Of a DNA stretch of 64,000 nucleotides, positions 26,377 to 35,093 are shown piece by piece. A program made the translations under genes and the position numbers. The stretch's first letter is position 1, and every line of letters begins with the position of its first letter. Source of the DNA: Pseudoxanthomonas kalamensis DSM 18571 (GTDB lineage Bacteria; Pseudomonadota; Gammaproteobacteria; Xanthomonadales; Xanthomonadaceae); NCBI RefSeq assembly GCF_010211745.1, contig NZ_PDWQ01000002.1:372001-436000 (forward strand), in the 5' to 3' direction. A model generated the notes under the pieces. It worked only from the letters and a program-made list of their open reading frames with translations. It had not been told where the DNA came from and made no database searches.

Positions 26377-28482
26377 TCAGGCCCCGGCATAGCGGGCCGC
26401 GCCACCGACCCAGCGGGCGACGATGCGGTCGGCCTGCTGCGGCGCCTCGGCCAGCAGGCGGTCGGCCAGCGCGTGCACCTGCGGCAACAGGCCGGCGTCG
26501 CGGCCGAGGTCGGCGATGCGGAAATCGGCCAGCCCGGTCTGGCGAGTGCCCAGCAACTCGCCGGGACCGCGCAGTTCCAGGTCCTTTTCGGCGATCACGA
26601 AGCCGTCGCTGGTCTGGCGCAGGGTATCCAGCCGCTGCCGCGCCATCTGCGACAACGGCGGCTGGTACAGCAACACGCAGGTCGAAGCCGCCGCGCCGCG
26701 CCCGACCCGGCCGCGCAACTGGTGCAACTGCGCCAGGCCCAGCCGCTCGGCGTTCTCGATGATCATCAGCGAGGCATTGGGCACGTCGACGCCGACCTCG
26801 ATTACCGTGGTCGCCACCAGCAGATCGATCTCACCACGGGTGAAGGCCTGCATGGCGGCCTGCTTGGCCGCGGCCTTCATCCGCCCGTGGACCAGAGCGA
26901 TGCGCAACTCCGGCATTGCCGCATCCAGTTGTTCGAAGGTGGTCTGCGCGGCCTGGGCGACCACTTCGTCGGATTCGTCGATCAGGGTGCATACCCAGTA
27001 GGCCTGGCGGCCTTCGCTGCAGGCGGCGCGGATGCGTTCGACCAGTTCCGGCCGACGCTCGGCGGCCAGCGCCACCGTCTGCACCGGGGTGCGTCCGGGC
27101 GGCAACTCGTCAATCGCCGATACATCAAGATCGGCATAGGCGGTCATGGCCAGGGTGCGCGGGATCGGGGTAGCGGTCATCACCAGCTGGTGCGGCACCG
27201 CGCCGCCGCCGGCCGCGCCCTTGTCGCGCAAGGCTAATCGTTGCTGCACGCCGAAACGGTGCTGCTCGTCGACGATGGCCAGGGCCAGATCGTGGAACAC
27301 CACCGCCTCCTGCATCAGCGCGTGGGTGCCGACCACGACCTGCGCCACGCCAGAAGCCACGTCCTCCAGCGCCTTGGCGCGCGCCTTGCCGGTCACCTTG
27401 CCGGCCAGCCAGGTCACCTGCACGCCCAGTGGCTGCAACCACGCGTGCAGGTTGCGCAGGTGCTGCTCGGCCAGCAATTCGGTCGGCGCGGCCAGCGCGA
27501 CCTGCCGCCCCTGCTCAACCGCCAGCATCGCCGCCAGCGCGGCGACCACGGTCTTGCCGGAACCGACATCGCCCTGCACCAACCGCAGCATCGGCAACGG
27601 CTTGGCGAGGTCGGCGCATACCTGTTCGAACACCCGCCGTTGCGCCGCGGTCAACCGGAACGGCAACGACTGCTCCAGCCGGCGTGCCAGCACGCCGTCG
27701 CCGGCCAGCACCGGCGCGCGATGCCGCTGCAGGGCGATCCGCTGCCGACGCAGGCTCAACTGGTGCGCCAGCAATTCCTCCAGCGCCAACCGGCGCTGCG
27801 CCGGATGCTGGCCGGTCAGCAACGCGGACACGTCGGCATCGAGTGGCGGACGATGCAGTGTCAGCACGGCCTCGCGCAGCGAAGGCAGCCGCAACGCATC
27901 CAGCACGTCCGCCGGCAGCAGCTCCAGCGAGGCCTCGTCGGGCAGGCGATCCAGCGCCTGCGCCACCAGCCGGCGCAGACTGACCGGGCCGATGCCCTCG
28001 ATCGCCGGATACACCGGGTCCAGCGCCTCGCCCAGGTCTTCGCCACCCTCTTCGTCCAGCACCCGATAGCTGGGGTGGACGATCTCCAGTCCGTGCTGGC
28101 CCGGGCGCGGCGTGCCGTAGCAACGCACCCGTGCGCCGACGCGGAACTGGTTGACCTGCTGCGAACGGAAGTGGAAGAAGCGCAGGACCAGGGTTGCCTG
28201 CGAATCGTCGGCGATCGCCACCCGCAACATCGGCCGGTAGCGGAAGCCGCGTTCGACCGCTTCCACCCTGCCCTCGACCTGTACTGTCTCGCCCGCCCGC
28301 AGTTCGGCAATCGGCGTCAGCCGGGTGCGGTCCTCGTACTGCCGCGGCAGGTGCAGCCACAAATCCTGCAGGGTCAGCAGGCCGCGCGCGGCCAGCTTCT
28401 CGGCCACCCGCGGGCCAACGCCCTTCAGCGAGGCGATGGGGATGCGGGCCGCCTCGTCGTGCCCGGAACCGGCTTGCGACAT
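26377..28482 (-). CDS. recG: ATP-dependent DNA helicase RecG
   Basis: A 701-aa branch-migrating helicase that rescues stalled replication forks. Start ATG 28482 (MSQAGSGHDEAARIPIASLKGVGPRVAEKL) is preferred to 28494; neither has a strong ribosome site. It has the N-terminal wedge/OB domain (VEGRVEAVERGFRYRPMLRVAI), Walker A GDVGSGKTVVA, the DEQH box (AIVDEQHRFGVQQR), TATPIPRT, and QLRGRVGRGAAASTCVLLY in helicase domain 2. Length is normal. Confidence 0.96.
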   Translation of the reverse strand: MSQAGSGHDEAARIPIASLKGVGPRVAEKLAARGLLTLQDLWLHLPRQYEDRTRLTPIAELRAGETVQVEGRVEAVERGFRYRPMLRVAIADDSQATLVLRFFHFRSQQVNQFRVGARVRCYGTPRPGQHGLEIVHPSYRVLDEEGGEDLGEALDPVYPAIEGIGPVSLRRLVAQALDRLPDEASLELLPADVLDALRLPSLREAVLTLHRPPLDADVSALLTGQHPAQRRLALEELLAHQLSLRRQRIALQRHRAPVLAGDGVLARRLEQSLPFRLTAAQRRVFEQVCADLAKPLPMLRLVQGDVGSGKTVVAALAAMLAVEQGRQVALAAPTELLAEQHLRNLHAWLQPLGVQVTWLAGKVTGKARAKALEDVASGVAQVVVGTHALMQEAVVFHDLALAIVDEQHRFGVQQRLALRDKGAAGGGAVPHQLVMTATPIPRTLAMTAYADLDVSAIDELPPGRTPVQTVALAAERRPELVERIRAACSEGRQAYWVCTLIDESDEVVAQAAQTTFEQLDAAMPELRIALVHGRMKAAAKQAAMQAFTRGEIDLLVATTVIEVGVDVPNASLMIIENAERLGLAQLHQLRGRVGRGAAASTCVLLYQPPLSQMARQRLDTLRQTSDGFVIAEKDLELRGPGELLGTRQTGLADFRIADLGRDAGLLPQVHALADRLLAEAPQQADRIVARWVGGAARYAGA

Positions 28483-28540
28483 GCCGACAAGCATGCAGGC
28501 TGGCCCCGGCGGATGCCAGCCCGCCGGAACCCGGCCACGA

Positions 28541-30979
28541 TCAGAACGAGACGCTCAGCTCCGCCCCGAGCTGACGCGGCGCCGATATCGAAGCGAACGG
28601 CGTGCCCAGCACCGAGGCGCTGATGTTGTTCACCCCGGTCACGTACTGCTTGTCGAACACGTTGTTGCCGTACACACCCAGGCCCCAGACGCCGTCGGCC
28701 GAGGTCCATTGCACGCGCACGTCGGTGCGGTTCTGCGCCTCGTTGACGTTGAAGTTGGGGCTGCTCTGGCAACTGCCCTGGGTCTGCGATTCCGCGTTGC
28801 AGCGACCTTTGCCGCGGTAGGCATGCAGCAACGAGAGGCTCAGGTCGCCCGCATCCCCCAGGTTGAAGGTGTAGCTGCCACCCAGCGACAACGACAGATA
28901 CGGTTCGCCAGTCGGATCACCGGAAACGTCGGTGCCGTTGATCATGGCGTCCTTGTAGGTCGAATCGATGAAGGCGCCGGACAGGTTCAGGTCCAGCCCC
29001 TGCACTGGCCGCCAGTGCATGTCCAGATCCACACCCCAGGCTTGCAGATCGCTGGTATCGATCAGGTAACGTGGCACTGCCGAACCGGCGGTGCTGGTAT
29101 CCAGGTAGATCGACTGCCGGTCCTTGTAGATGTAGTAGTAGGTGGACGCGTTGAGCGACAGCTTCTGCTCCGGGAACACGGTCTTGATGCCGAATTCGGC
29201 GTTCCACACTTCCTCGTTGTCGAAGTACGACAGCGGCTGCACGCTGTTGTAGCCACCGGCCTTGTAACCCTTGGCCAACGAGGCGAACACCATGGTGTCG
29301 TCGCTGAGCGCGTAGTCGATCACGAAACGCGGACTGATATCGGTCCAGGAGTCCTTCTTGCCGACCTTGACCCCTTCCAGTTCACCGAAGGCGAATACGA
29401 AATCTTCCTGGAACATCTCGGCCGCCACCGGCAGGCCCATCGACTGCAACAGGGCGAAGAACCCGGCCTGGTCCAGCGCCGCCAGCGTGTAGTCGAACGT
29501 CTCCGCTTCGCGCGGGCCGTTGTACCAGGAGAACTCCTTGCGGTCGTGGGTCAGGCGCAGGCCGAAAGTCAGGTTGAGCCTGTCGTTGACGTGCCAGATG
29601 ACGTCGCCGAACGCGGCCAGCGCCTGCGCGTCGCCCTGGTTGATCATGCTTTCGGTCCAGGTATGGCCCAGCATGGTGAACGGAATGCCCTGGCCTTGCA
29701 GGATCTGGTCGATCAGCGCGATGGCGTCGATCGGCCCGCCCAGCATCTGCAGGTTGGACATCCCCGTGCCGAGGCTGTCGGTCAGCAGGCGAGTATCGCT
29801 GGTCTGGTCGGCCTCCTCCTTGAACCAGCTGACGCCGGCCACCCAGTCGAAACTGCCGGCCACGCCGTTGAACTTGAATTCCTGGTAGTAGCTGCGGTTG
29901 CTCTCGATGTTGGCAGTATCGAAGTACAGGTTGGGGCGGTTGCTGCCGTCCTCGTCCTCGCGGTTGACGGTATCGAAGTCGCGCAATGCAGTGGTCGACA
30001 GCAGGGTGCCCCAGGAAAAATCGTGGGTGACCTGCAGGGTGACGCCGTTGAAATTGCGCGATTCCTCGTTGCCGATCACGTCGTTGTACACCGGTGCATC
30101 CAGCGGATTCAGGTACGTGGCCGGATCGGCCGGATACGGCGCGACCGACGGATACGGATCCAGCGCCACCAGCCCGATCGCCGGACGCGCCTTCTGGTTG
30201 ATGCTTTCATGGTCCCATGACAGGTTCAGCGTGGTCGCATCGCCCAGTTCCGAGCGCCAGGCCGCACGGGTCGCCCAGCTGTCCTCGGGGTTGAGCTTGG
30301 CGCCGCTGCCGGCGTCGGTCAGCCAGCCGTCGCTGTGGTTGCTCAGCGCGCTGAAGCGCAATGCGTGGCGATCACCGAACGGGATGTTGACCAGACCGGA
30401 CAGATATTCGCGCCCATCCTCGCCGAAGCGCAGTCGGGCGTTCGCCTCGAACGCGCTTCCGGGCTTGTTGGTGATCAGCGACACCGCGCCGGCGGCGCTG
30501 TTGCGGCCGAACAGCGTGCCCTGCGGCCCCTTCAGCACCTCGATCCGCTCAATGTCGTTGAACGCCAGCATGGCACCACCGGTGCGCGCCGAATACACGC
30601 CGTCGATGTACACGCCCACCGGCGGATCGGTGCCGATGCCGAAATCGCCGACCGAGATGCCGCGGATCGCGTAGCGCGGCTGGGTCGGGCTGCCATCGGA
30701 CACCACCAGGCCGGGCACGAAGTCGGCCAGGTCGCCGATGTCGTTGGCGGCGACGCGGTCAATCGTCTCGCCGTTGACCACCTGGATGGCGATCGGCACG
30801 TCCTTCAGTTCCTGTTGACGGCTCTGCGCGGTCACGGTGACGGTGTCCAGCGTGGCGGCATCGTCCTGCGCTTCGGCGGTCGCCTGTTGCGCCAGTGCCG
30901 ATCCGGCGGCGCTGAGCAGGCAACTGGCCAGCAGGGCGCGGCGCAGGCCGATTGCCAATTCGCGTTGATGCAAGTTCAT
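28541..30979 (-). CDS. TonB-dependent outer-membrane receptor
   Basis: An 812-aa receptor. Start ATG 30979 has GGGAGGG 4-10 nt upstream. There is an export signal (LLASCLLSAAGSALAQQ), a TonB-box-like TLDTVTVTA, a plug with YAIRGISVGDFGIGTDPPVGVYIDGVY and EVLKGPQGTLFGRNSAAGAV, and a barrel ending in LGAELSVSF. Late loops carry two cysteines (GRCNAESQTQGSCQ). The VTAQSRQQELKDVPIAIQVV lead-in is common in receptors for non-siderophore substrates such as lipids or aromatics, but the substrate is unknown. It is the last gene of the beta-helix/cytochrome/receptor operon, 29 nt after the cytochrome. A longer open frame up to 31594 is the cytochrome shadow. Confidence 0.92.
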   Translation of the reverse strand: MNLHQRELAIGLRRALLASCLLSAAGSALAQQATAEAQDDAATLDTVTVTAQSRQQELKDVPIAIQVVNGETIDRVAANDIGDLADFVPGLVVSDGSPTQPRYAIRGISVGDFGIGTDPPVGVYIDGVYSARTGGAMLAFNDIERIEVLKGPQGTLFGRNSAAGAVSLITNKPGSAFEANARLRFGEDGREYLSGLVNIPFGDRHALRFSALSNHSDGWLTDAGSGAKLNPEDSWATRAAWRSELGDATTLNLSWDHESINQKARPAIGLVALDPYPSVAPYPADPATYLNPLDAPVYNDVIGNEESRNFNGVTLQVTHDFSWGTLLSTTALRDFDTVNREDEDGSNRPNLYFDTANIESNRSYYQEFKFNGVAGSFDWVAGVSWFKEEADQTSDTRLLTDSLGTGMSNLQMLGGPIDAIALIDQILQGQGIPFTMLGHTWTESMINQGDAQALAAFGDVIWHVNDRLNLTFGLRLTHDRKEFSWYNGPREAETFDYTLAALDQAGFFALLQSMGLPVAAEMFQEDFVFAFGELEGVKVGKKDSWTDISPRFVIDYALSDDTMVFASLAKGYKAGGYNSVQPLSYFDNEEVWNAEFGIKTVFPEQKLSLNASTYYYIYKDRQSIYLDTSTAGSAVPRYLIDTSDLQAWGVDLDMHWRPVQGLDLNLSGAFIDSTYKDAMINGTDVSGDPTGEPYLSLSLGGSYTFNLGDAGDLSLSLLHAYRGKGRCNAESQTQGSCQSSPNFNVNEAQNRTDVRVQWTSADGVWGLGVYGNNVFDKQYVTGVNNISASVLGTPFASISAPRQLGAELSVSF

Positions 30980-31008
30980 CACTCCCTCCCAGAAGCGTGG
31001 TATTTCGG

Positions 31009-32193
31009 TTATCCGTTCGTGTCGTCGGCGGAAATCCTGTCCGCCGCCATATCGTCGCAACTGCTGCGCTGGGCCTGGATCCAGGCATTGATCAGTTCCA
31101 CGCCCTCGCGATGGGTCACCGAGCGACCGACCTCCGGCATCATTTCGCCCGGGTCGGTGCTCTGCATGCGGAAGCTGAGGATCGACGCCGCGGCATCGCC
31201 CGGCTCGATATCGTGTCGGCGGTTGCCAGTGCCGCGACCGGCAGCGATCGGCAGCTTGCAGAAGCCCAGCTTGTGGCGGTCCTCGGTCCGCGCATCCAGG
31301 AACAAACCCGACGTAATGGCCGCGCCGGTGGGGCTGTGGCAATGGCCGCAGTTGATGTCCAGATAAGCGCGCGCGCGCTGTTCGAGGCTGGCGTGGCCGG
31401 CATCGGCGGCGTCGGCATTGCGCGGCGCCTGCGCCGGATCGGGCGCGCCGCTCAGGTAGCCGATGCGGGTCAGATGGGTCAACTGGTTCTCGCGGCCGTC
31501 GGCATAGTCGAAGTCGCGGTTCAGGTGCCTGGCCCTGGGCCCGATCGGCGACAGCAACCGCGAACGATTGTCGGTGATGTGGCAGCCGCCGCACTGGTTC
31601 TGGTCCGGCACCTGGTAAGGCAGGGCCTCGCGGCTGCCATCGGCGGCGACCAGCTCCAGGTCAACCAGATCGCCGGTGCGCTTGAGCACCGCGTCGGTTT
31701 GGGCGTCGTTCCATACGTACGGCAGCGCGATCCAACCGTCCTGACGATGCACCAGCAGGCGCGTCTCGACCAGCCGCACCTTCGACAGCTCGAGGCTCTC
31801 GCCTTTCAGCACGCTGTCCGACGGCGGCCTGCGCGCCACCGACTTGCCGTCCCAGGCCTGCCCCGCCGGCAGCGGGTAGTAGAAGGTCTTGCTGATGATG
31901 GTGCCGACCGGGAAGTCGAAGGCCTCGTAATCGCGGTACTGCGCCGAGCTGCCTTCCGGCATCCAGATCGTCCGCAGCTTGTGCGCGTAATCGGTGAACA
32001 GCGGCGTGTTGAGGTCGTACGGAACCACGCCGGCATTCAGGCGCAGGCGTCCCTGCTCGACATCGAGCACATGCCAGTCGCTCAGTTTCGGCGGCATGCC
32101 ATCGGCGAAGAAGTTCACCGAAGGCTGGCGGCCGCACCCGGCCAGCAGCATCAGCAACAGCAGCGCTGCGGCCAGACGCACGCGATCAACCAC
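31009..32193 (-). CDS. Diheme c-type cytochrome lipoprotein (SO2930 family, TIGR03806-like)
   Basis: A 394-aa exported protein. Signal and lipobox end at LLAGC (C20). There are two heme-c sites, CGGCH (201-205) and CGHCH (282-286), with MMPEVG near residue 351 as the likely axial methionine region. The N-terminal 190 residues are beta-rich with no heme. This matches the uncharacterised SO2930/HNE_0200 family, which is known to pair with a beta-helix protein family; the next gene upstream is exactly that. The GTG start at 32193 lies 8 nt inside the end of the beta-helix gene; a GTG at 32181 is the alternative. The protein should pass electrons in the periplasm; its donor is unknown. Confidence 0.9.
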   Translation of the reverse strand: MVDRVRLAAALLLLMLLAGCGRQPSVNFFADGMPPKLSDWHVLDVEQGRLRLNAGVVPYDLNTPLFTDYAHKLRTIWMPEGSSAQYRDYEAFDFPVGTIISKTFYYPLPAGQAWDGKSVARRPPSDSVLKGESLELSKVRLVETRLLVHRQDGWIALPYVWNDAQTDAVLKRTGDLVDLELVAADGSREALPYQVPDQNQCGGCHITDNRSRLLSPIGPRARHLNRDFDYADGRENQLTHLTRIGYLSGAPDPAQAPRNADAADAGHASLEQRARAYLDINCGHCHSPTGAAITSGLFLDARTEDRHKLGFCKLPIAAGRGTGNRRHDIEPGDAAASILSFRMQSTDPGEMMPEVGRSVTHREGVELINAWIQAQRSSCDDMAADRISADDTNG

Positions 32194-33412
32194 GCTTCAG
32201 GTCCACGGCCGGCAGTCTGGGCAGGTCGCAGGCGAACGGTGCGGCGTCCTTGTTCGGGTTCTTGTAGCCGCCGGGGCCATCGGCGTCGATCACGCCGCTG
32301 ACGTCGCGCAGGCAGATTTCCGGGCCGACCGCCTGGTCATCGACCTTGCGGTCGGCGTTGTAGTAGCCGTCCCACAGCACGTCGGGCAGGCTGCCGCGCA
32401 GGCCGTACAGCGCGATCCTCAGCGCCTTCAGGTCCAGGCCGTCGGGCGAATCTCCGCCACCGGACAGGGTGTTGCCGTGCACGTAGACGCGCTCGGGATA
32501 CGGGTCGAAGCTGTCGGACGTGGTCGAGTCCTTGTAGCCGGTCGAATACACGCTGGAGATGATGATGTTGGCGGTGGCGTTGTCGCGGATCTCGTTGTCG
32601 AAGATCTCGATGTCGTCGTTGGAATTGACCACCACCCCGGAACCGGCCGGCACGCTGGCCACCGGCGTGCCTTCGGCGCCGAAGTTCTCGTGATTGTTGG
32701 CCACCACCTGGTTGTCGTAGACGCGGATGTTGCCGCCCTGCTGCGACAGCCCGGGCATGTTGAATACCAGGATGCCGCCGGTGTTGCCGGTGGCGACGTT
32801 CTCGTACACGTCGGCGTTGCGGGTGTTCTCGACCTCGATCCCGGCCACGTTCTGCTCGGCACGGTTGCGACGGACGATGACGCCGTCGGACTGGCCGACA
32901 TAGATGCCGGCGTCGGAAGCACCGATCGCCACGCTGTCCTCGATCAGCACGTTCTTTGTCAGCACCGGATACAGCCCGTAGCCGCCGTTGTCGGTGCTGG
33001 GGCCACCGGTCCATTCGACCTTGACCTTGCGGATGGTGATGTTTTCCGACTCGCTGATCTTCAGGCCGTCGCCGCGCGAATCCTGGATGGTCAGGTCTTC
33101 GATCAGGAAATCGTCGCCGTTGACCAGCAGGCCCTCGGCGCCGGCCTTCTGCCCCTTGAAGCTCAGCACGGTCTGGTCCATACCGGCGCCGCGCAGGGTC
33201 ACCCCGCTGGCGCGCAGGGTCAGGCTGCGGTCGAAACGGTAGGTGCCGGCCGGAATCTCGATGACGTCGCCCGGCTTGGCGTCGAGCAGGCGCTCGTGCA
33301 GTTGCTGGGCGTAATCGGCATCGCCGCTCGCGGCCGGTGCCTGGCCGGCGGATTCGGGCTTGCAGGCAGCCAAGGCCAGCAGCAGACCGATCGTCAGGAT
33401 GTTGCGTTGCAT
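32186..33412 (-). CDS. Parallel beta-helix repeat lipoprotein (TIGR03805-like)
   Basis: A 408-aa lipoprotein: the signal ends in LALAAC (C17). Start has GGGAGG 6-11 nt upstream. After a short linker, repeated turns of a right-handed beta-helix run from about residue 45 to 310 (VTLRGAGMDQTVLSF, FLIEDLTIQDSRGDGLKI, ITIRKVKVEW, VLIEDSVAIGASDAGIYV, VIVRRNRAEQNVAGIEV, DVYENVATGNTGGILV). The C-terminal 90 residues have two cysteines (PEICLRDV, APFACDLP). This fold often binds or cleaves polysaccharides, but this family's role is unknown. It is the first gene of the operon and overlaps the cytochrome by 8 nt, so the two are almost certainly made together. Confidence 0.88.
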   Translation of the reverse strand: MQRNILTIGLLLALAACKPESAGQAPAASGDADYAQQLHERLLDAKPGDVIEIPAGTYRFDRSLTLRASGVTLRGAGMDQTVLSFKGQKAGAEGLLVNGDDFLIEDLTIQDSRGDGLKISESENITIRKVKVEWTGGPSTDNGGYGLYPVLTKNVLIEDSVAIGASDAGIYVGQSDGVIVRRNRAEQNVAGIEVENTRNADVYENVATGNTGGILVFNMPGLSQQGGNIRVYDNQVVANNHENFGAEGTPVASVPAGSGVVVNSNDDIEIFDNEIRDNATANIIISSVYSTGYKDSTTSDSFDPYPERVYVHGNTLSGGGDSPDGLDLKALRIALYGLRGSLPDVLWDGYYNADRKVDDQAVGPEICLRDVSGVIDADGPGGYKNPNKDAAPFACDLPRLPAVDLKRG

Positions 33413-33557
33413 GTCGTCCTCCCGAAATGCGGCGACCGCGCGGCCACCATACGCCAGCGAATACTGGAAACCCGCAGTTTTGCCGCAGGGCCGCGTGCAA
33501 CATAGGGCGGAACCGGCATACTAGGGGGGGCAAAGCGGACAAGCTGGAGGGGCCAGC

Positions 33558-34604
33558 GTGGATCAGCACATCGAAGCGGGCAACGACCGGCGTCTGGTCG
33601 CGGCCAATCTGCCGACCAATATGCTGTGCAGTCTGGTGCTGCTGGCCGAGGAACAGGGAATCGATTGCCAGCCCTGGTTCGCCGGCCTGCGCCTGAGTCC
33701 GGGCGAAACCTGCGACCCGCAAGTCCGCGTGTCCTACCGCCAGGCCGCCACCGTCATCCGCCGCGCCCTGCGCAGCCTGCCGGCGCCGGCGCCCGGGCTG
33801 GCAATCGGGGCCAGGCAGAACGGCAGCAACTTCGGCCTGCTCGGCCTGGCGATGCGGATGGCGCGCGATTTCGGCGAGGCGGTGCGGATCGGCCTGGACT
33901 TCCAGCAGAACCAGGGCCCGCTGCTCGACCTGCGGCTGGACGATGTCGACGGGCAACACGTGGCGGTCACCGCCACGCCGCCGCTGAAGGTACCGGAGAT
34001 CCTGCCATTCCTGTGCGAGGAAATGTTCTCCAGCCTGCTGATGCTGGCGCGCGAACTGACCGACTCACGCTTCGCGCCCACGCGGGTCGAACTGGCCTAC
34101 CCGGCGCCGGCGCATGCCGGGCAGTATCGGGAGCTGTTCGGATGCCCGGTGCTGTTCGATCAGTCCCACAACCGGCTGGTGCTGGAACGGCGCTGGCTGT
34201 CGCTGCCGTTTCCGCACCACAACCCGGTCAGTTCGCGACAGGCGCTGGCGATGTGCCAGGCGCAGATGGCCACGACCCAGGGCAACGCCGGGGAAACCAT
34301 CGCCGCGGTCGAGCGTCAGCTGCGTCCGCGCCTGCGCGAGAACCCGAAGATGGACGACATCGCCACCCGCCTGCACCTGAGCGGACGCACCCTGCGCCGG
34401 CGGCTGGCGGAAGAAGGCCAGTGCTACAGCGACATCCACGACCGCGTGCGCACCGAACGTGCGCTGGAACTGCTGGAGAACCACAAGCTGGGCATCGCCC
34501 AGGTTGGCAGCCAGCTGGGCTTCAACGATGCGCGCGAGTTCCGCCGCGCCTTCAAGCGCTGGACCGGGCACACACCCAGCCAGGCGCGCACGCTGGCAAA
34601 TTGA
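33558..34604 (+). CDS. AraC family transcriptional regulator
   Basis: A 348-aa regulator. The GTG at 33558 has GGAGG 7-11 nt upstream. The first 240 residues form the Arabinose_bd/OruR-type ligand domain (SYRQAATVIRRAL, FGLLGLAMRMARDFGEAV), and the C-terminal 85 are the AraC double helix-turn-helix (MDDIATRLHLSGRTLRRRLAEEG..., LGIAQVGSQLGFNDAREFRRAFKRWTGHTPSQAR). It diverges from the beta-helix/cytochrome/receptor operon across a 145-nt gap, so it probably controls that operon in response to a small, perhaps imported, ligand. That is inference from position. Confidence 0.92.
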   Translation: MDQHIEAGNDRRLVAANLPTNMLCSLVLLAEEQGIDCQPWFAGLRLSPGETCDPQVRVSYRQAATVIRRALRSLPAPAPGLAIGARQNGSNFGLLGLAMRMARDFGEAVRIGLDFQQNQGPLLDLRLDDVDGQHVAVTATPPLKVPEILPFLCEEMFSSLLMLARELTDSRFAPTRVELAYPAPAHAGQYRELFGCPVLFDQSHNRLVLERRWLSLPFPHHNPVSSRQALAMCQAQMATTQGNAGETIAAVERQLRPRLRENPKMDDIATRLHLSGRTLRRRLAEEGQCYSDIHDRVRTERALELLENHKLGIAQVGSQLGFNDAREFRRAFKRWTGHTPSQARTLAN

Positions 34605-34625: not shown

Positions 34626-35009
34626 TCAGCCCAGCACCATCGTCGCTTCGACTTCGAAGCCCACGCCCTTGGGCAGGGCCGCGACCTGGATCGTCGAGCG
34701 TGCCGGATACGGCGCCTGGAAGTATTCCTGCATCACCGCATTGACCGCGGCGAACTCGCCCAGGTCGGTAAGGAACAGGCCGAGGCGGACGATCCGGTCG
34801 AGCGAGCCACCGGCCGCCTCGGCCACCGCCTTCAGGTTGTCGAAGGCGCGCCGCGCCTGCGCGTCGATGCCGCCGGCGACCACCTCGCCGGTCGCGGGGT
34901 CGAGCGGAATCTGTCCGGAGAAATACACCGTGTCGCCGACCCGCACCGCCTGCGAATACGGGCCAATGGCGGCCGGAGCCTGTTCGGTGTGGACGATCTG
35001 CTTGCTCAT
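34626..35009 (-). CDS. ridA: RidA family enamine/imine deaminase
   Basis: A 127-aa protein that hydrolyses reactive enamine/imine intermediates made by PLP enzymes. Start ATG 35009 has GGAG 9-12 nt upstream. The hallmark residues are present: AAIGPYSQAV, YFSGQIPLDPATGEVV, and the arginine of PARSTIQVAALPKGVGFEVEATMV. It converges on the araC gene with a 21-nt gap and follows spoT by 84 nt. Confidence 0.95.
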   Translation of the reverse strand: MSKQIVHTEQAPAAIGPYSQAVRVGDTVYFSGQIPLDPATGEVVAGGIDAQARRAFDNLKAVAEAAGGSLDRIVRLGLFLTDLGEFAAVNAVMQEYFQAPYPARSTIQVAALPKGVGFEVEATMVLG

Positions 35010-35093
35010 GCTGGGCACTCCGGAAGCTGGCTCTGAAACTTGGCATTCTACCGGCGTCCCGCCATCCGTGACCGCCCTTGCCTGCGCGTGCGC

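Follow-up and report, generated by a model that had tools for sequence, protein, structure and literature searches.

The protein families TIGR03805 and TIGR03806, a right-handed beta-helix protein and a diheme c-type cytochrome, are known as a gene pair, and the Shewanella proteins SO_2930 and SO_2931 are listed as outer-membrane or extracellular c-type cytochromes (PMC4837345, excerpt). We found no function for the pair in the open-access literature. In Pseudomonas, a periplasmic oxidoreductase and a cytochrome lipoprotein for sphingosine respond to the regulator SphR (PMC11893366, excerpt), and cytochromes P460 and c'-beta bind gases or oxidise hydroxylamine (PMC11928373, excerpt). Here we analyse a TIGR03805/TIGR03806 locus in a 64,000-nucleotide stretch of Pseudoxanthomonas kalamensis DSM 18571 (contig NZ_PDWQ01000002.1, positions 372,001 to 436,000; hereafter the window). 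Both window proteins score over the curated cut-offs and keep the usual gene order; the locus differs from the pair as described in forming a four-gene cassette with a TonB-dependent receptor, an AraC-type regulator and a putative operator, and in a proposed P460-like domain of the cytochrome. New here are the operator, natural fusions of the beta-helix protein and the cytochrome, an association with aldehyde dehydrogenase and FadL genes, and the P460 resemblance of the cytochrome's N-terminal half. We propose, at roughly even confidence, that an AraC-type switch governs a catabolic or detoxifying cassette here, directed at a hydrophobic, probably lipid-like compound that the two-heme protein would oxidise outside the inner membrane.

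The operon lies on the minus strand. Its first gene, bhx (32186-33412), encodes the beta-helix lipoprotein, and is followed by the gene for the SO2930-family diheme c-type cytochrome lipoprotein (31009-32193; protein P0002) and, last, that for an 812-residue TonB-dependent receptor (28541-30979); the gene for the AraC-type regulator (33558-34604, plus strand) diverges from it. All four reading frames are open. In NCBIfam the beta-helix protein scores 434.6 bits against the TIGR03805 cut-off of 141.5, and the cytochrome 398.7 bits against the TIGR03806 cut-off of 313.3; the latter carries two CxxCH heme motifs (CGGCH, residues 201-205, and CGHCH, residues 282-286) and matches no Pfam family at E<=0.001. 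The TonB plug and barrel families, PF07715 and PF00593, are over cut-off in the receptor, and the regulator falls in the AraC-family subgroup with a PF12625 ligand-binding domain (146.1 bits) and a helix-turn-helix (HTH_18, 64.4 bits). The nearest NCBIfam models of the regulator, QhpR, GliR and CypR, are each under their own cut-off, as are the siderophore and heme receptor models that rank highest for the receptor. By eye, the beta-helix and cytochrome proteins have lipobox-like N-termini (LLAGC, LAAC). Frames and family scans bear out the gene identities and spacing given in an earlier note on this DNA, namely a divergent AraC gene, a 29-nt gap between cytochrome and receptor genes, and an 8-nt overlap of the cytochrome gene with bhx. 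That overlap hinges on the GTG start chosen at 32193; an alternative GTG at 32181, a choice of the gene caller, would abolish it.

Between araC and bhx lies a putative operator (33504-33540, minus strand), identified by footprint and per-locus scores as an imperfect direct repeat in which GKCCGNTTTGCCC half-sites are spaced by about 22-23 bp. It lies upstream of both genes, 91 nt from the start of bhx and 17 nt from that of araC. Across 19 aligned upstream regions the conserved block reads GKCCGNTTTGCCCCCC, and a looser second copy follows about 22-23 bp past it. The left half-site matches at least 13 of 16 positions upstream of bhx in 75 of 80 regions from the order (window included), the other five (L013, L022, L028, L058 and L069) scoring 10-11, and in 0 of 33 regions outside the order, where the best score is 12. 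Scored over its full length, the consensus ranges from 15 to 32 of 32 within the order and reaches 19 at most outside it. In Dyella and Rhodanobacter, where araC is encoded in the same orientation as bhx and at times kilobases off, the site stays before bhx, so it is more than a leader of araC. Trained on these sites, a stricter model with two half-sites, whose background is 0.10 matches per Mb in base-shuffled sequence, recovers the site before bhx at 45 of the 80 order loci; its other matches in the loci are one within coding sequence (L049 and its duplicate L173) and a weaker one before a PF03283 gene (L026). Among 38 genomes of the genus, the operator pattern occurs in 26 and TIGR03806 in 28, with both in 25 and neither in 9; three have TIGR03806 without the pattern and one (G1010) the pattern without TIGR03806. 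The P. kalamensis genome itself has one match, and a single extra weak match was found across the 38, in G1017. The direct repeat is very probably an operator shared by the cassette, and would be that of a dedicated regulator, presumably the AraC protein. GliR likewise relies on GC-rich motifs, which overlap the -35 element or lie upstream of it (PMC8151288, excerpt).

The pectinacetylesterase-type PF03283 gene appears in two of the loci: in Dyella marensis (L026:5214) the weaker operator-like site lies upstream of it, and in Tahibacter soli (L023:5987-7384) it adjoins the AraC gene. It is possibly a second member of the regulon.

Synteny places the cassette between recG (26377-28494, minus strand) on one side and ridA (34626-35018, minus strand), followed by spoT, rpoZ and gmk, on the other, and the nearest named relatives of the locus are in Pseudoxanthomonas. 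In all six cassette-free genus members inspected, of ten lacking TIGR03806, ridA and recG are adjacent. The space between them is roughly 0.1-0.2 kb in five of the six and ~0.65 kb in L252, where it could hold a small gene; the gene set thus appears to have been gained or lost as one unit within the genus. The conserved operator and the empty slot together point to one regulated cassette, and agree with the earlier note's reading of the three minus-strand genes as a single unit with a divergent regulator.

We compared 120 loci, made up of the best 80 of 500 relatives and 40 from class and phylum samples (4 of these 40 below the TIGR03806 cut-off), with genes called by a caller trained on homologues. 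The closest relatives, 79 loci with one duplicated, form the order-level set, and 41 loci lie outside it. TIGR03806 is found in 39 of 149 family genomes (33 over cut-off), 39 of 369 class genomes (7 over cut-off) and 46 of 398 sampled phylum genomes (37 over cut-off), the genus, family, class and phylum samples overlapping one another. Within the order, bhx is directly upstream of the cytochrome gene in 79 of 79 loci; the receptor gene is directly downstream in 73 and somewhere in the stretch in 77, and an AraC gene stands beside bhx in 58, anywhere in the stretch in 74, and divergently in 36. Some order loci short of the full set end at contig ends (L013, L039, L043). Outside the order, the cytochrome or its fusion with the beta-helix protein is present in 37 of 41 loci, and bhx is directly upstream in 33 of the 37, the remaining four being loci with a fusion. 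A receptor directly downstream is seen in 1 of these 37 (same-cluster receptor anywhere in 3), and an AraC gene beside the pair in none (same-cluster AraC anywhere in 3). The TIGR03805/TIGR03806 pairing given in the earlier note therefore holds in both sets, whereas by the note's own check receptor and regulator are conserved with the pair within the order (73/79, 74/79) and not outside it (1/37, 0/37). The pair is general; receptor and regulator accompany it within the order. A neighbourhood search for a substrate gene brought out no common partner of the pair outside the order. A tetratricopeptide-repeat protein (cluster c111) is encoded directly upstream of the pair in L161 (6172-7695); in L038 (4818-6230) it lies within a few genes of the cassette.

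Beta-helix and cytochrome occur as a single protein in L141, L172 and L180, the cytochrome part of the latter two lying under the TIGR03806 cut-off. Of 116 genomes searched in the L141 family, 72 matched, and each of the 30 loci fetched from them has a single open frame, 877-908 residues long, that contains two CxxCH motifs. Given these natural fusions, we consider it likely that the two proteins form a complex; the structure model of the fusion has a predicted template-modelling score (pTM) of 0.59, so we draw no conclusion from it on domain docking. The cytochrome module is also fused to a GSDH-type pyrroloquinoline quinone (PQQ) propeller (L178:7925-9955 and L179:6483-9959, both under cut-off), and so works with two kinds of partner. 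These propeller fusions suggest a swappable electron-handling or heme-enzyme module. At L141:7623-11566, the fused gene is followed by a separate second copy of the cytochrome, to which a same-cluster AraC gene is convergent.

The beta-helix protein resembles the right-handed beta-helix proteins NosD and AlgE/PL6, with Pfam matches to PF05048 and PF13229 and with AlgE4 as best fold match, RbmB and PL6 lyases also being among the nearest folds. It differs from them in scoring 41.6 bits against the NCBIfam NosD cut-off of 300, in lacking a conserved histidine, and, across the loci examined, in standing next to the cytochrome or being joined to it in one protein. Nine residues (K118, W134, Y145, Y148, D167, Y171, Q174, E193 and E195) are invariant in 66 of 66 sequences, in which no histidine is conserved above 50% and no cysteine above 60%. 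Mannuronan epimerases need a catalytic histidine, and a reading as mannuronan C5 epimerase or PL6 enzyme was dropped for want of any such residue above 50% in this set. Substrate holding is favoured over catalysis as the role of the protein.

The cytochrome appears to consist of an N-terminal P460-like beta domain, carrying heme 1 (CGGCH 201-205), and a C-terminal cytochrome c part, carrying heme 2 (CGHCH 282-286). Conservation was scored in sets of 43 and 97 non-redundant sequences with P0002 numbering, and the invariants of the larger set include K72, R74, K102, E143, R145, W154, both CxxCH motifs and M352. No second methionine, and no histidine outside the two motifs, reaches 90% in the 97 sequences, so heme 2 looks His/Met-ligated and heme 1 open. 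The N-terminal half shares with cytochrome P460/c'-beta (PF16694) the collinear motifs LRxI, FPxGTxxxK, GW and CxxCH and, as far as can be judged by eye, an invariant lysine and glutamate in what look like matching strands; it differs in being under the Pfam cut-off with no structural match listed, in an extra hairpin before CxxCH and in the joined second cytochrome c part. Aligned with 23 P460 sequences, the cytochrome profile reaches a probability of 82% (E 1.1e-5, 37 columns). In hhalign the N-terminal half scores 33.6 against P460, where 100 column shuffles reach at most 24.0 and reversed P460 12.9; a relaxed alignment extends to 129 columns, through CxxCH. A wider profile gives 32.8 (maximum of 200 shuffles, 22.7), and removing CxxCH from both sides leaves 33.2 (maximum of 200 shuffles, 21.1). 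When a P460 model was run over 1790 locus proteins, 115 of them cytochromes, places 1-10 were all cytochromes, seven of which were matched across the strand region. The reverse search with a cytochrome model placed P460 proteins above background (Mann-Whitney p 6e-6), with 4 of the 23 giving no match, and two of four cytochromes tested matched PF16694 weakly in Pfam (E 0.025 and 0.33). The structure model (predicted local distance difference test 92.2, pTM 0.88) appears, by eye, to have its strands in the order of the five-stranded antiparallel beta-sheet of P460, with the extra hairpin. K102 (97/97) aligns with the P460 motif lysine, which is probably Lys70, and E143 (97/97) aligns with the P460 glutamate in the narrow profile and is shifted in the wide one. 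Lys70 is the heme cross-link and Glu96 the distal carboxylate of N. europaea P460 (PMC11928373, excerpt).

Several results count against this resemblance. The best of the four cytochromes tested reaches 15.4 bits against a PF16694 gathering cut-off of 27, and the window cytochrome has no Pfam P460 match even at E<=10. The C-terminal half, used as a control, also scores above the shuffles against P460 (24.9 and 26.1 over 10-11 columns), so that CxxCH alone is worth about 25. The top scores of the P460 model are low, 8.4 bits at most, with three of its top ten matched at CxxCH only, and no single P460 sequence is significant against the cytochrome model (best E 0.88). Foldseek returns no PDB match to the structure model at E<=0.001, and no P460 among the best 50 of 329 matches at E<=10, so we term the domain P460-like rather than P460; a search of the cytochrome profile against PDB sequences gave four weak matches, to cytochromes c and a probable cytochrome c peroxidase. 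With these results weighed, we remain fairly confident that the N-terminal half is a P460-like domain. The cytochrome is probably an enzyme with its own electron relay and not a carrier alone. The earlier note had cast it as an electron carrier; a carrier role alone sits poorly with a heme 1 that lacks a conserved distal methionine or histidine in a domain resembling P460 enzymes.

The rival that fares best keeps the cytochrome as electron acceptor only and makes the beta-helix protein the enzyme, or the carrier of an unknown cofactor, in the place of the PQQ propeller. The fusion of one cytochrome module to either a GSDH propeller (L178, L179) or a beta-helix (L141, L172, L180) fits this account, as do the invariant Lys, Asp, Glu, Gln and Tyr of the beta-helix and its nearest folds in AlgE4, RbmB and the PL6 lyases. 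To our knowledge, however, no redox cofactor is known for the beta-helix fold, no histidine or cysteine exceeds 60% in the 66 sequences, and a heme 1 without an invariant distal methionine or histidine would be odd in a pure electron carrier; we regard this rival as unlikely.

Clues to the substrate of an enzymatic cytochrome come from neighbouring genes. In 37 of the 79 order loci the receptor gene is followed, in the same orientation, by one for an aldehyde dehydrogenase; the gaps span -1 to 357 nt and do not exceed 13 nt in 15 cases. Only genes directly downstream of the receptor were counted; a 1051-residue protein of the same cluster, encoded upstream in Dyella, looks PutA-like by eye, so upstream copies were left out. 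The stretch also encodes a FadL-type protein in 27 of the 79 order loci. Of the loci with a fusion, L172 has a FadL gene 69 nt upstream of it, and L141 a VolA/Pla-1 phospholipase gene at a distance of about 4 kb. The aldehyde dehydrogenase and FadL neighbours point to a hydrophobic substrate that yields an aldehyde; that the substrate is hydrophobic we hold at a little under even confidence, and that the product is an aldehyde more tentatively still. A RoxA-type rubber oxygenase was considered as well, since it would likewise join two hemes to an aldehyde product. Speaking against such a substrate are the receptor-to-aldehyde-dehydrogenase gaps as long as 357 nt, and the named Pseudoxanthomonas loci inspected, which have no aldehyde dehydrogenase or FadL within 7 genes per side (the window has neither beside the cassette). 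Outside the order, moreover, receptor, AraC and FadL genes are mostly missing around the pair, so that the case for a lipid may apply to some families only.

In the mechanism we propose, the AraC protein would bind the direct-repeat operator between araC and bhx and turn on the operon bhx-cyt-receptor, and the receptor would carry the compound over the outer membrane. The beta-helix lipoprotein and the diheme cytochrome, acting as one complex as the fusions suggest, would then take over, the beta-helix holding or positioning the substrate. The substrate or an oxidant may react at the P460-like heme 1, with its apparently open distal side and conserved lysine and glutamate, and the C-terminal His/Met cytochrome c part would take electrons away. 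An aldehyde product could be completed by the aldehyde dehydrogenase found after the receptor in many relatives. Like SphR/sphBC, such a system would combine an AraC-family regulator with the oxidation of a lipid in the periplasm by an induced enzyme and its partner cytochrome lipoprotein; it differs in that SphC is a predicted FMN (flavin mononucleotide)-linked oxidoreductase rather than a beta-helix protein and that the sphBCD operon has no receptor, and SphR is described as not required for growth (PMC11893366).

The pair could instead be a heme-based detoxifying or gas-binding system for nitric oxide, peroxide or hydroxylamine, with the receptor importing something unrelated, such as an iron chelate. 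This would accord with hydroxylamine oxidation or gas binding by P460 and c'-beta proteins (PMC11928373, excerpt), with the siderophore and heme receptor models, though under cut-off, that best match the receptor, and with Pseudomonas-like and sphingomonad-like loci in which the pair lacks a receptor. It is harder to square with a receptor gene that immediately follows the pair in 73 of 79 order loci, one operator before the operon whose pattern has no second match in this genome, and the aldehyde dehydrogenase after the receptor with FadL nearby, and we judge it improbable. Least plausible, and in our view very unlikely, is a carbohydrate module in which the beta-helix binds or cleaves a receptor-imported polysaccharide and the cytochrome oxidises sugar ends: the polysaccharide enzymes among the best fold matches and the PF03283 gene with its weaker operator-like site (L026) or beside AraC (L023) speak for it, but the conserved histidine of the epimerases is missing, no carbohydrate enzyme other than PF03283 was recognised by eye in 16 loci (most neighbours being unscanned), and the FadL and phospholipase neighbours point elsewhere.

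The receptor probably has a history of its own within the cassette. In its tree the window clusters with L002-L004 and P. dokdonensis (L020) and is separated from the Stenotrophomonas receptors and from most others of Pseudoxanthomonas, whereas the beta-helix tree unites the window and L002-L004 with 13 of the strains so separated (support 93/87). Constraining these 17 receptors together is rejected by the approximately unbiased (AU) test (p 2e-7), for a group that was named after the trees were seen. Given this conflict between the trees, the receptor was probably swapped in place while the rest of the cassette was retained, as might be expected for a surface part.

A regulator with apparently one operator offers a direct reporter for finding the inducer, and a P460-like heme domain allows a spectroscopic test of the cytochrome's nature. 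More speculatively, and in our view doubtfully, TIGR03806 may represent a new class of periplasmic heme enzyme, P460-type and possibly with a lysine-cross-linked heme, that has its own electron relay, docks on a beta-helix or PQQ propeller and acts on a lipid-like organic substrate. If this is true, P460-type heme chemistry would reach organic compounds, beyond the nitrogen cycle, and would extend to a family whose members score over cut-off in 37 of the 398 genomes sampled from the phylum.

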